Of a stretch of DNA of 64,000 nt, positions 5,416 through 31,075 are shown one piece after another. A program made the translations under genes and the position numbers. Every line of letters begins with the position of its first letter. Positions within the stretch are counted from its first letter, which is position 1. The notes beneath the pieces were generated by a model. That model was given only the letters and a program-made list of their open reading frames with translations, did no database searches and was not told the origin of the DNA. Source of the stretch: Histidinibacterium aquaticum (GTDB lineage Bacteria; Pseudomonadota; Alphaproteobacteria; Rhodobacterales; Rhodobacteraceae); the NCBI RefSeq assembly GCF_008710275.1, contig NZ_VYQE01000002.1, forward strand, positions 483,522 to 547,521, given 5' to 3'.

Positions 5416-6438
5416 TCAGGAAAACATCTCTTCGAGGTCCACGGTCGCGCGTTCGCCGATGTCGTCCCAGTGGGCCTCGAGGAAGGCGTCCGCCGCGGCC
5501 CGCCCCGCCGCCTTGAGCCGCGCCATGACGACGGCGTTTGGCACCATCTTCGTCGCCACGCTGAGCTCGTTCATCAGCCCGTCGTCGGCGATCATGTGAA
5601 CGAGGACGTCCTTCATGGTGCCCTTCGGCACGTTGCCCTGCCGCAGCAGGCGCTTGACGAAGTTGATGGCCCGCATCTCCCGCAGCAGCGACGAGTTGAA
5701 GCTGATCTCGTTGATCCGGTTCTGGATCGCCTGCGGATCGCGCGGGACGGCTTCCCGGCGGATCGGGTTGATGTTCACCACCACGAGGTCGTCCGGGAGG
5801 TGCGGCGCATAAAGCGGATAGAGTGCCGGGTTCCCGGTATAGCCGCCGTCCCAGTAGGCCTCGCCGTCGATCTCCACGGCCTGGAACAGCGTCGGCAGGC
5901 AGGCCGAGGCGAGGATCGCCTCAGTGGAGATCGCCTCGCCCGCGAAGACCCGGATCTTGCCGCTGCGCACGTTCGTCGCGCAGATGTGGATCTCGGGCCC
6001 GCCCGCGCCGCAGACCGCGCCGAAGTCGAACCCCTCGACGATCCGCTGCAGCGGATTCCGCACCATCGGGCCGTAGAGGTAGGGCGTCGTCAGCCGCACC
6101 GAGGCATCGAAGGCCGCGAAGGCGGGCGAGTATTCCAGCGCCTTGGCGAGAAAGGGAGCGGACGGCGCCAGCGCCGAGAGCCAGTCGGTCATCCGGTCGT
6201 CGGTGATCGCGCCCACCTGGGACCAGAGCCGGTCGAGCTGCGTCTTGGCCCCATCCCTGCCCCGGTGCACCATCCCGGCCTTCACCGCGGCGGCATTGAG
6301 CGCGCCCGCCGAGGTGCCGGAGATCGCGGCGATCTCCAGCCGCTCCTCTTCCAGCAGCCTGTCGAGCACGCCCCAGGTGAAGGCGCCATGCGCGCCCCCG
6401 CCCTGCAGCGCGAGGTTGATGCGCTTGCTGCCGCTCAC
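5416..6438 (-). CDS. Patatin-like phospholipase
   Basis: A 340-residue patatin-domain hydrolase. The oxyanion glycine loop LQGGGAHGAF is at residues 11-20, the nucleophile elbow GTSAG at 41-45 (Ser43), and the catalytic Asp lies in the later WDGGYTGNP motif, giving the Ser-Asp dyad of patatins. Members deacylate lipids or other acyl esters. The GTG start overlaps the stop codon of the upstream 3-hydroxybutyrate dehydrogenase gene by 4 bases, so the two are translationally coupled. That link suggests a role in acyl or polyhydroxybutyrate turnover, but this is inference; phospholipase activity is equally possible. No signal peptide is seen. Confidence 0.87.
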   Translation of the reverse strand: MSGSKRINLALQGGGAHGAFTWGVLDRLLEEERLEIAAISGTSAGALNAAAVKAGMVHRGRDGAKTQLDRLWSQVGAITDDRMTDWLSALAPSAPFLAKALEYSPAFAAFDASVRLTTPYLYGPMVRNPLQRIVEGFDFGAVCGAGGPEIHICATNVRSGKIRVFAGEAISTEAILASACLPTLFQAVEIDGEAYWDGGYTGNPALYPLYAPHLPDDLVVVNINPIRREAVPRDPQAIQNRINEISFNSSLLREMRAINFVKRLLRQGNVPKGTMKDVLVHMIADDGLMNELSVATKMVPNAVVMARLKAAGRAAADAFLEAHWDDIGERATVDLEEMFS

Positions 6439-7208
6439 CGCGCCGTCCAGCCGCCGTCCATGCTGAGCGTCGTGCCGGTGATCTGGGCGGCGTGGTCGGA
6501 GCAGAGAAAGACCGCCGACCCGCCGAGCTGCTCCAGCGTCGCGAACTCCTTGGAGGGCTGCCGCTCGAGGATCACCTCCTTGATCGCGGTCTCCCGATCC
6601 ATGCCGTACTGCTTCATCGTGTCGGGGATCTGGGCCTCGACCAGCGGCGTCAGGACGTAGCCCGGACAGATCGCGTTCGCCGTGATCGGCTCCTCCGCCG
6701 TCTCCAGCGCCGTCACCTTGGTGAAGCCCACCACGCCATGCTTTGCCGCCACGTAGGCGCCCTTGTAGGGCGAGGCGCGCAGTCCGTGCGCTGAGGAGAT
6801 GTTGATCACCCGGCCCCAGCCCGCCTTCCGCATCATCGGCAGCGCGACCGCGGTCGTGTGGAAGACCGAGGAGAGCATGATCGCGATGATCGCGTCCCAT
6901 TTCTCGACCGGGAACTCCTCGATCGGCGAGACCTGCTGAATGCCGGCGTTGTTCACCAGGATGTCGCAGGCCCCCGCCTGCTCGATCAGGCCGCGCGCCT
7001 CCTCGCCCTTAGACAGGTCGGCCTTGATGTAGCGCGCCGTGACGCCGAATTCCTCGCCGAGCTCCTTGGCCAGCTGATGGTCTTCCTCGCTGTCGGTGTA
7101 GGAGTTGAGGACCACGTCCGCCCCCGCGCCGGCCATCGCCCGGGCGATGCCCAGCCCGATCCCGGAGTTGGAGCCTGTCACGACGGCGGTCTTGCCGGAT
7201 AGTTGCAT
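6435..7208 (-). CDS. bdhA: 3-hydroxybutyrate dehydrogenase
   Basis: A 257-residue short-chain dehydrogenase with the NAD-binding TGSNSGIG motif at residues 11-18, NNAG around 88-91, catalytic Ser in NISSAHG and the YxxxK motif (YVAAK) after it. The QVSPIEEFP and YVLTPLVEAQIP segments are typical of BdhA, which interconverts (R)-3-hydroxybutyrate and acetoacetate during polyhydroxybutyrate breakdown. An AAGGAG site precedes the ATG. A promoter candidate lies about 30 bases upstream, and the downstream patatin gene overlaps by 4 bases. Confidence 0.93.
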   Translation of the reverse strand: MQLSGKTAVVTGSNSGIGLGIARAMAGAGADVVLNSYTDSEEDHQLAKELGEEFGVTARYIKADLSKGEEARGLIEQAGACDILVNNAGIQQVSPIEEFPVEKWDAIIAIMLSSVFHTTAVALPMMRKAGWGRVINISSAHGLRASPYKGAYVAAKHGVVGFTKVTALETAEEPITANAICPGYVLTPLVEAQIPDTMKQYGMDRETAIKEVILERQPSKEFATLEQLGGSAVFLCSDHAAQITGTTLSMDGGWTAR

Positions 7209-7236
7209 CGGGATCTCCTTGCTGCGTGCCGCCTGC

Positions 7237-7264
7237 ATAATGCTGCGCGTGCGAAGCAGATCAA
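7237..7264 (-). promoter_or_regulatory. Candidate promoter of bdhA
   Basis: On the minus strand TTGATC (-35) is followed after 16 bases by CATTAT (-10), placing transcription start near 7230, about 20 bases before the bdhA ATG. It lies downstream of the small-RNA terminator, so bdhA would not need read-through from that unit. Confidence 0.45.
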
Positions 7265-7396
7265 CCTCACGTCGGCGTTTCAGGATATGATCGCTCAGGA
7301 CCGCCTGTCCCCGCCGCCACCTCGGGAGCGATTCCCCGGGGAGTCCGGCTCTGGGGAACCTGTCCGATCCCGGCCCCGCACCCGCCGCATCGGCCC

Positions 7397-7425
7397 AAAA
7401 AAAACGCCCGCACAAGGCGGGCGTT
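7397..7425 (-). terminator. Rho-independent terminator of the sRNA
   Basis: Minus-strand stem AACGCCCGC / GCGGGCGTT (7417-7425 and 7403-7411) with a 5-nt loop, followed by a run of Us encoded by the A8 tract at 7397-7404. Confidence 0.85.
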
Positions 7426-7472
7426 GAGTTATTGAGGCAGGTTTCATACAGGCAAGAAACCTATCGAGCAGT
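7397..7472 (-). ncRNA. Probable small regulatory RNA, about 75 nt
   Basis: The unit has its own strong promoter just upstream, a first hairpin AGGTTTC...GAAACCT (7-bp stem, 10-nt loop, CUUGCCUGU inside) and a 3' rho-independent terminator with a perfect 9-bp stem followed by eight Us. No convincing reading frame is present. It is separated from bdhA by about 190 bases and bdhA appears to have its own promoter, which favours a stand-alone sRNA over a leader attenuator. The first loop and the following linker repeat UGCCU, which could pair with AGGCA-type targets. I do not recognise it as a named family. Confidence 0.6.
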
Positions 7473-7478
7473 GCCCCC

Positions 7479-7507
7479 CTTATAAGCAATCCGTCGCCCG
7501 CCGCCAA
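7479..7507 (-). promoter_or_regulatory. Sigma70-type promoter of the sRNA
   Basis: TTGGCG (7502-7507) and TATAAG (7479-7484) on the minus strand are separated by exactly 17 bases. An A at 7472 sits 7 bases past the -10 box and is the likely start. Confidence 0.65.
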
Positions 7508-7585
7508 CCTAAAAGTTTGATAACGCTGGCGCTCCCCTTTACCGTTTCCTCAACTGACAACGAGCAGCAGGGGATTGTCGCCGAT

Positions 7586-9403
7586 ATGGAACCTAAGTTT
7601 TTGCGCGGTCTGCGCGCGAGCCTTGGTGCGCTGGCACTCGGTCTGGCCGCCCAGGCCGTCGGCGCCGAGCCGCAGCATGGCATAGCTATGTACGGGGAGC
7701 CCGAGCTCCCACCCGATTTTGTGGCTCTCCCCTACGCGAACCCCGATGCGCCCACGGGCGGACGCATCGTCGAGGCCAATGTCGGCAGCTTCGATTCGCT
7801 CAATCCCTACATCCGCAAGGGCAATGTCCCCTGGCAGATCAGATTCCACGTCGGTGAGACATTGATGGGCCGTTCGCTCGACGAGCCCTTCACCCTCTAC
7901 GGCCTGCTGGCCGAATCCGTCGAGACCGGCCCGAATCGTGAGTGGGTGGAATTCACCCTCCGGCCCGAGGCCGAATTCTCTGACGGCTCCCCGGTGACCG
8001 TCGAGGACGTGATCTGGTCCTTCGAGACCCTCGGTTCCGAGGGTCACCCCCGCTACGCAGGGTTCTGGTCCTCCGTGGAGTCGATCGAGCAGACCGGCGA
8101 GCGCAAAGTCCGCATCACCTTCAACACCGACAACCGTGAGCTCGCGCTGCTGGCGGGCATGCGCCCGATCCTCAAGAAGGAGCAGTTCGAGGGCATCGAC
8201 TTCGCCGAGGAGGGCGACAGCATCGTCCCCATCGCCTCCTCGCCCTACGTGATCGGCGACTACGAGCTGGGCCGCTACGTCGTCCTGGAGCGCAATCCCG
8301 ACTACTGGGGATGGGACGTCGTCCCGTTCCGGAACGGCACCTACAATCTCGACGAATACCGGCTGGAGTTCTTCGGCGACGAGACCGCGGCCTTCGAGGC
8401 CTTCAAGGCGGGCATCGTCACCACCCAGCGCGAGTTCAACGCGGGCCGCTGGCAGGACCGCTACGATTTCCCCGCCATCGACGAAGGCGAGATCGTGAAG
8501 TCCGAGATCCCGCACGAGCGGCCGACGGGCATGACGGGCTTCGTCATGAACACCCGCCGCGCGCCCTTCGACGACATCCGGGTTCGCGAAGCGCTCATGC
8601 ATGCCTTCAACTTCGAGGCCATCAACGACGCGCTCTCCGGCGGAACGCAGCCGAGGATCCAGTCCTACTTCTCCAACTCGCCGCTCGGCATGGAGGTGGG
8701 CGAGCCCGCCGAGGGCCGCGTCCGCGAGATGCTGGAACAGTACGACGACCTTCCGGAAGGCGCGCTCGAGGGCTACTCGCTCCCCGAGAGCGACGGCACG
8801 CTCCGGAACCGCGGCAATATCCGCGAGGCGATGAACCTCCTGCAGGAAGCGGGCTGGACCGTTCAGGACGGCGTGCTCAAGAACGAAGAGGGCGAGCCCT
8901 TCGAGTTCGAGATCCTGCTGGAACAGGGCGTCACCGAGCAGACCCAGTTCACCGATCCCTACCTTGAAAGCCTCGAGCGGCTGGGGATTTTCCCGACCGT
9001 CTCCTCGGCCGACAGCGCCCAGTACAAGGAGCGGACGGACAACTACAATTTCGACATGACCTGGTTCCGCCGCGCTCTCTCGCTCTCGCCGGGGACCGAG
9101 CAGTACCTCTACTGGGGCTCCGAGGCGGCGGACACTGTCGGCGGCCGCAACCTCATGGGCGTGAAGTCCGAGGCAGTCGATGGCCTCATCGACACGCTGC
9201 TCACCGCCGAAGAGACCGAGGATTTCTACGCGGCCGCGAAGGCGCTCGACCGGGTGCTGACCGCCGGCCGCTACGTGATCCCGACCTACGCCTGGAACGT
9301 CAGTTGGCTCGCCCACGACGCGAACCTGCACTACCCCGAGGAGATTCCGATCTTCGGCGACTGGACGAACTGGCAGCCCGACGTCTGGTGGTACGAGGAG
9401 TGA
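7586..9403 (+). CDS. Family 5 extracellular solute-binding protein, YejA-like
   Basis: The 605-residue protein has a signal peptide (cleavage near residue 26, AVGA/E) and then the HGIAMYGEPELPPDF and FDSLNPYI segments of YejA/peptide-binding proteins, which deliver oligopeptides or microcin-C-like compounds to an ABC permease. The length fits the family. No yejB, yejE or yejF genes follow; a strong terminator comes 24 bases after the stop, so it is a monocistronic orphan here. The ATG at 7586 begins the signal peptide; an upstream in-frame start at 7517 would bury it. A weak promoter candidate (TTGATA, 17 bases, TACCGT) begins at 7517. Confidence 0.88.
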   Translation: MEPKFLRGLRASLGALALGLAAQAVGAEPQHGIAMYGEPELPPDFVALPYANPDAPTGGRIVEANVGSFDSLNPYIRKGNVPWQIRFHVGETLMGRSLDEPFTLYGLLAESVETGPNREWVEFTLRPEAEFSDGSPVTVEDVIWSFETLGSEGHPRYAGFWSSVESIEQTGERKVRITFNTDNRELALLAGMRPILKKEQFEGIDFAEEGDSIVPIASSPYVIGDYELGRYVVLERNPDYWGWDVVPFRNGTYNLDEYRLEFFGDETAAFEAFKAGIVTTQREFNAGRWQDRYDFPAIDEGEIVKSEIPHERPTGMTGFVMNTRRAPFDDIRVREALMHAFNFEAINDALSGGTQPRIQSYFSNSPLGMEVGEPAEGRVREMLEQYDDLPEGALEGYSLPESDGTLRNRGNIREAMNLLQEAGWTVQDGVLKNEEGEPFEFEILLEQGVTEQTQFTDPYLESLERLGIFPTVSSADSAQYKERTDNYNFDMTWFRRALSLSPGTEQYLYWGSEAADTVGGRNLMGVKSEAVDGLIDTLLTAEETEDFYAAAKALDRVLTAGRYVIPTYAWNVSWLAHDANLHYPEEIPIFGDWTNWQPDVWWYEE

Positions 9404-30989: not shown

Positions 30990-31075
30990 TGGTACCGGTG
31001 GTCGGACTCGAACCGACACGATGTTGCCATCGGGGGATTTTGAATCCCCTGCGTCTACCATTCCGCCACACCGGC
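30990..31075 (-). tRNA. tRNA-Leu (CAA anticodon)
   Basis: The minus strand folds as a class II tRNA: 7-bp acceptor stem GCCGGTG / CACCGGT with a G-U first pair, anticodon stem GGGGA/TCCCC around loop TTCAAAA (CAA), a long variable arm, T-loop GGTTCGAGTCC, discriminator A and an encoded CCA. Confidence 0.96.

Follow-up and report, generated by a model that had tools for sequence, protein, structure and literature searches.

What is encoded in the short gap between a 3-hydroxybutyrate dehydrogenase gene (bdhA) and a divergent transporter gene in the window (i.e., the whole 64,000-nucleotide stretch of Histidinibacterium aquaticum DNA analyzed here): a leader that governs bdhA, or a gene in its own right? 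On the minus strand, this gap reads in order TTGGCG, 17 nt, TATAAG, six bases, ACTGCTCGATAGGTTTCTTGCCTGTATGAAACCTGCCTC, a short linker, a GC-rich stem of 9 bp and T8 (Table 1), and the promoter, the hairpin with its UGCCU loop and the perfect terminator described in the initial annotation are all found on that strand where it had placed them. Its estimate of a complete unit of about 75 nt holds as to the elements, the length from A7472 to the last T being 76 nt. Transcription probably starts at A7472, the A of ACTGCTCG, a 5′ end predicted from the promoter and from the onset of conservation, which coincides with this base among relatives.

Table 1. Features of the small RNA locus and its flanking genes (positions in the 64-kb window; RNA positions, nt, are counted from the predicted 5′ end).
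Feature	Position	Strand	Remarks
bdhA, 3-hydroxybutyrate dehydrogenase	6435..7208	-	TIGR01963, 352 bits (cut-off 307); downstream of the RNA
Terminator stem-loop	7403..7425	-	9 bp, followed by T8 (7404-7397)
Putative StsR-type small RNA	7397..7472	-	76 nt with the full T run; 72 nt if the transcript ends at the fourth U
Near-invariant 39-nt core	7434..7472	-	identical in 66/67 distinct copies
Predicted dcw-leader pairing segment	7437..7455	-	nt 18-36; complementary without mismatch over 19 nt to the mraZ leader of the same genome
Hairpin 1	7438..7463	-	nt 10-17 with nt 28-35; 10-nt loop containing UGCCU
CTGCTCG	7465..7471	-	nt 2-8; complementary to the dcw-leader heptamer CGAGCAG; may form a second contact
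-10 box TATAAG	7479..7484	-	spacer of 17
-35 box TTGGCG	7502..7507	-	relatives mostly CTTGG
AAACTTTTA block	7510..7518	-	immediately 5′ of the -35 box; kept in relatives, exact in 54/67 distinct copies
ABC transporter substrate-binding protein gene	7586..9403	+	divergent; all NCBIfam names below cut-offs

Taken by itself, the evidence from this single sequence is modest. The 79-nt stretch 7475-7397 has a fold z-score of -4.3 relative to shuffles; this fold drew variable 5′ bases into extra pairing, and folding from the conserved A gives the hairpin UAGGUUUC/GAAACCUG with its 10-nt loop. Across positions 6000-9000, a promoter scan with a threshold of 9/12 matches reported no promoter, and a terminator scan returned two overlapping sites for 1.2 expected. 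A search of the whole window with Rfam 15 at gathering score gave no match at the RNA gene, where no family reaches its cut-off, the sole match being a tRNA elsewhere (tRNA-Leu (caa), about 30990-31075 on the minus strand, the only tRNA in the window).

The comparative evidence, on the other hand, goes well beyond chance. A DNA search recovered the region in all 37 same-family genomes, counting the source genome; of 24 others, one gave a match, 20 nt long. Across 30 aligned loci, the 39-nt core was identical save for one A-to-T change, while the linker and terminator varied, and the only core variant among 67 distinct copies (loci picked as good matches) was likewise A9 to T. Since the aligned loci are the best-scoring ones and the seven weakest-matching same-family genomes were left out, this invariance is somewhat overstated. 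Within the same selection of good matches, [CG]TTGG-N16..19-TATA precedes 65 of the 67 distinct copies, the usual form of the promoter being AAACTTTTA-GCTTGG-N17-TATAA. The two helices differ in what their variation can tell: the terminator stem displays changes on both sides at 4/9 pairs, a value reached by 0/500 shuffles (a control that leaves kinship in), and hairpin 1 receives no covariation support because its pairs never vary. The search for covariation among relatives suggested in the initial annotation gives a signal for the terminator and none for the hairpin.

The distribution of the RNA was next evaluated with a covariance model (R1), which scores 108.7 bits at the RNA gene, the next best match in the same genome reaching 21.5 bits. 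Of 394 family genomes, 384 contain a match (383 of 393 genera); among the 347 with ≥90% completeness and ≤5% contamination, the figure is 345. In a class-wide sample (n = 289), the only strong matches came from the four family genomes it includes, at 103.8-109.2 bits, and 16 other genomes reached E 0.01 at 24.6-31.4 bits. Scores of 100-106 bits were obtained for the copies in Cereibacter johrii, Luteovulum azotoformans and C. ovatus. Several family genomes (G378, G101, G110, G153 and others) contain two to three model matches at E 0.01, which could be paralogs or weak extra matches. Overall, these patterns correspond to a small RNA gene that looks ordinary in sequence and is very widely conserved within the family.

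To search for partners of this RNA, we compared the best uninterrupted complementarity between its core and gene start regions against dinucleotide shuffles, using 90 nt per start region and ~310 nt for mraZ leaders, the mraZ leader being the 5′ untranslated region of the division and cell-wall (dcw) gene cluster, outside the window. The mraZ leaders stood out, with a mean z of 6.32 (n = 26) and 92% of values above 2. These 26 leaders, in which a reading frame was assigned, derive from 30 mraZ loci in 29 genomes, the excluded ones being L108 (at a contig edge), L117, L122 and L134 (a second copy in one draft genome). Starts of bdhA gave a mean z of 0.36 (n = 54) vs. 0.39 for control stretches inside bdhA (n = 52), and those of the transporter substrate-binding protein a mean z of 0.21 (n = 65), i.e., below this bdhA-internal control. 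Single-case pairings at bdhA (GAGGCAGG in R. sphaeroides copy L141, at the ribosome site, and TTATGCAGGCGG in the window) are not shared between genomes and were rejected.

In the source genome, the leader contains GCAGGTTTCATACAGGCAA, to which nt 18-36 of the RNA are perfectly complementary over 19 nt (duplex of -33.4 kcal/mol). A 22-nt version of the site was found with ≤5 mismatches in 25/30 mraZ loci, and a search of both strands of 0.99 Mb of other sequence returned three matches at 4-5 mismatches plus 72 exact copies, the latter being expected because the sRNA loci themselves lie in that 0.99 Mb. Among mraZ loci without the 22-nt site, L108, L109, L111 and L129 retain complementary runs of 13-17 nt (G-U allowed), and the mraZ leader of L121 contains no convincing site. 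On a larger scale, the 16-mer CAGGTTTCATACAGGC occurs with ≤1 mismatch in 388 of 394 family genomes, vs. 2 of 394 for a reversed control pattern; outside the family, 10 of 285 genomes have such a match, and none of these is exact. By hand-transcribed counts, at least two matches are present in 271 family genomes, one in 117 and none in six; the sRNA gene should itself account for one match in each genome, and that the second is the dcw leader was checked at the mraZ loci analyzed. Some genomes (G226, G014, G161, G069, G208 and others) hold a third or even a fourth copy of the target site with one mismatch (e.g., CAGGTTTCACACAGGC), which might be extra targets. The mraZ leader alignment (e.g., L130 and L146) also includes further conserved blocks, such as GAGCAGACATCCCCCCAGGTG, that pairing with the sRNA does not explain. 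No compensatory changes were observed between sRNA and leader: the leader of the R. sphaeroides group has one mismatch inside the site, and the sRNA is unchanged.

This target links the locus to StsR (formerly RSs0827), described as a 72-nt orphan sRNA of Rhodobacter sphaeroides (PMC8307010, PMC8625941) that reaches high levels in stationary phase and whose expression is induced by RpoHI/RpoHII (PMC8307010, PMC8625941, PMC11354728). In the published accounts available to us, binding of StsR to UpsM and to the dcw 5′ UTR brings about a structural change that leads to an RNase E cut and less dcw mRNA (PMC8307010, PMC8625941, PMC11354728), and StsR is thereby known to restrain cell division in that species. 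UpsM is described as a 206-nt RNA derived from the mraZ 5′ UTR, the long leader being exclusive to Rhodobacteraceae (PMC5089854), and its RNase E cut in R. sphaeroides 2.4.1 is placed at 694,720 (PMC6238624). In genome G686, the dcw site spans 694,689-694,706 and thus ends 14 nt before this cut; because the site adjoins the published 2.4.1 coordinate, G686 was taken for R. sphaeroides 2.4.1. Genome G079 of the family sample carries two 16-mer sites at the G686 coordinates. One RNA copy was reported in G686, at 1,443,996-1,444,071, and among 60 kb of this genome, no locus other than the one at 1,444 kb shows the promoter-terminator pattern or a complement to UpsM with <2 mismatches in 17. Both here and in the R. 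sphaeroides copy, the predicted length is 68 nt to the U run, which with four of the eight U equals the published 72 nt. In an accessibility-corrected scan, the best sRNA-UpsM site was again the dcw-leader site (-15.7 kcal/mol). By sequence, the gene stands alone with its own promoter and terminator, as reported for StsR, and is complementary to both UpsM and the dcw 5′ UTR; its conserved CTTGG-N17-TATAA promoter may be of either the RpoH or the sigma-70 type, the published StsR being RpoHI/RpoHII-dependent. Since the predicted pairing site is the described target of StsR, the RNA is most likely an StsR ortholog, and we consider it very probable that the locus encodes a free-standing, trans-acting sRNA of this kind, whose core would pair with the dcw leader and lower dcw expression and division.

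Could the RNA instead be distinct from StsR while sharing the dcw leader as its target, in which case UpsM would be acted on by two sRNAs in R. sphaeroides? For four sRNAs whose coordinates are known, the RSs number follows chromosomal position almost linearly, and on this scale RSs0827 interpolates to ~853 kb, whereas the gene sits at 1,444 kb, for which a number of ~1370 would be expected. RSs1368, a number from an older sRNA list, was mentioned in none of the literature searched. The published StsR-rpoE seed, described as beginning 10 nt after the GTG, was not reproduced either: in our own scan (not IntaRNA) of the C. johrii rpoE, no such seed appeared at +10 and the best site, from +53 to +70, was weak (-4.1 kcal/mol), with plain duplex energies providing no discrimination for rpoE. 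However, neither an RNA gene of this pattern nor a UpsM complement better than 2 mismatches in 17 was found in the 835-875 kb region of G686, whereas the 1,444-kb locus fits both, so that the interpolation, rather than the identity with StsR, was judged wrong. Together with the match to the published length and the proximity of the site to the RNase E cut, this makes a gene separate from StsR improbable.

The two remaining explanations both start from the neighborhood of bdhA. In the first, the RNA would be a bdhA leader, with an attenuator or riboswitch-like terminator controlling read-through into the gene. Indeed, 25/30 loci have bdhA downstream in the same orientation, and the Rfam Trp_leader and Leu_leader models give scores at the RNA, both below cut-off. 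These weak alignments rest largely on the terminator stem, however, and the distance between RNA and bdhA ranges from 27 to 1314 nt, two of these loci having gaps of 898 and 1314 nt with the core unchanged. In the other 5/30 loci, bdhA is absent from the ~1.5 kb examined downstream and the core is again unchanged, which indicates that the RNA does not depend on bdhA; a position directly upstream of this gene is thus not a constant property of the RNA, and the most constant neighbor is the divergent substrate-binding protein gene (29/30 loci). With its strong pairing partner elsewhere, in the dcw leader, a role as bdhA leader appears highly improbable, in line with the view of the initial annotation that this is an independent sRNA gene and not a mere leader. 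An attenuator with a leader peptide was likewise considered and rejected, as ATG AAA CCT GCC is present in the core but its stop and frame vary (by eye). In the second explanation, to which we give even less credence, the RNA would be a relative of alpha-r8/MmgR (RF00519), an sRNA family limiting polyhydroxybutyrate storage, and would act on bdhA or storage genes. The neighboring 3-hydroxybutyrate dehydrogenase gene would fit such a role, and RF00519 does align end to end, but at 19.8 bits for a gathering score of 41, when nine other weak matches at 17.1-24.1 bits occur elsewhere in the same genome; moreover, the model stretch UUUcCUCCCU is poorly matched, and bdhA starts carry no pairing signal. 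A search of the literature for a link between an sRNA and bdhA in Rhodobacter found none.

The region upstream of bdhA has features of its own. The separate bdhA promoter mentioned in the initial annotation would correspond to a weak TTGATC-16-CATTAT (7264-7237, minus strand), read by eye only. In 37 of 54 relatives, the 100 nt preceding bdhA contain GCAGCA/TGCTGC motifs, vs. a mean of 6 in shuffles, and in the window these motifs overlap this by-eye promoter (7237-7264, minus strand). We take these motifs to resemble a PhaR-type operator.

Returning to the StsR ortholog, its activity in this organism can be outlined by analogy with the R. sphaeroides work. The RNA would be expressed under RpoH control and accumulate in stress or stationary phase, where nt 18-36 (the loop and 3′ arm of hairpin 1) would pair in the cell with the conserved 16-19 nt site in the dcw leader and in its terminated form. 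This pairing may remodel the leader such that RNase E cuts just downstream; dcw mRNA would then fall, with lower expression of division and cell-wall genes and slower division as the expected outcome. In a folding model, the paired probability of the RNase E site went from 0.38 to 0.44 with site A kept unpaired, i.e., without a rise in openness.

A second contact might be added to this scheme. In 25/26 leaders, the heptamer CGAGCAG follows the first site at a distance of 33-41 nt, inside a conserved block, and is complementary to CUGCUCG (nt 2-8) of the RNA. One may thus speculate, although we think it rather unlikely, that nt 2-8 and nt 18-36 bind CGAGCAG and CAGGUUUCAUACAGGC at once, forming a two-point clamp that would act family-wide as a near-universal division switch. 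The order of the sites would let one sRNA hold both and loop out the segment containing the RNase E cut, and in R. sphaeroides the cut at 694,720 does fall in the segment between both sites (between 694,706 and 694,742). If true, such a clamp would explain the near-unchanging core, yet a 7-nt match within a conserved block could also arise by chance, at roughly the per-cent level by our own estimate.

What appears new here is the family-wide spread of both the gene and its target site. StsR is described from one species in the literature searched, where a wider distribution is nowhere reported, within a scope that stopped short of most subscription papers, the original StsR paper included; if the RNA is indeed its ortholog, this would be a trait of nearly the whole family. 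Searching the literature by the letters of the core retrieved, among the papers listed, only ones unrelated by title. As no Rfam 15 family covers the RNA, it will be overlooked when genomes are annotated from Rfam. From the alignments, the precise positions for mutagenesis can be read off for any family member amenable to genetics.

Other small RNAs of these bacteria offer partial parallels. The accessible text of sRNA papers on R. pomeroyi and P. denitrificans (PMC4809877, PMC5107571) contains no identifiable match to the RNA. Two putative sRNAs of Paracoccus denitrificans, Intergenic 60 and Intergenic 134, are reported as 80-84 nt long, expressed and conserved across Rhodobacteraceae (PMC5107571), but compared by description, their reported matches in Sphingomonadales and Actinobacteria are unlike the distribution of the RNA in our class-wide sample. 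In Caulobacter crescentus, CrfA and SisA-D (alpha-r8 family) are described as a case in which one regulatory RNA pairs with another (PMC12559287); this resembles the present system as alphaproteobacterial RNA-RNA pairing, whereas the RNAs and targets differ and RF00519 stays below its gathering score here. UpsM is itself distinct from the RNA, being a separate 206-nt product of the mraZ 5′ UTR encoded outside the window, and is its predicted partner, with the long leader described as exclusive to the family and the RNA apparently likewise. The closest likeness is to StsR, judged from its published description: the interpolated position of RSs0827 disagrees and the rpoE seed was not reproduced, but both are free-standing short RNAs complementary to the UpsM/dcw leader beside the RNase E cut.
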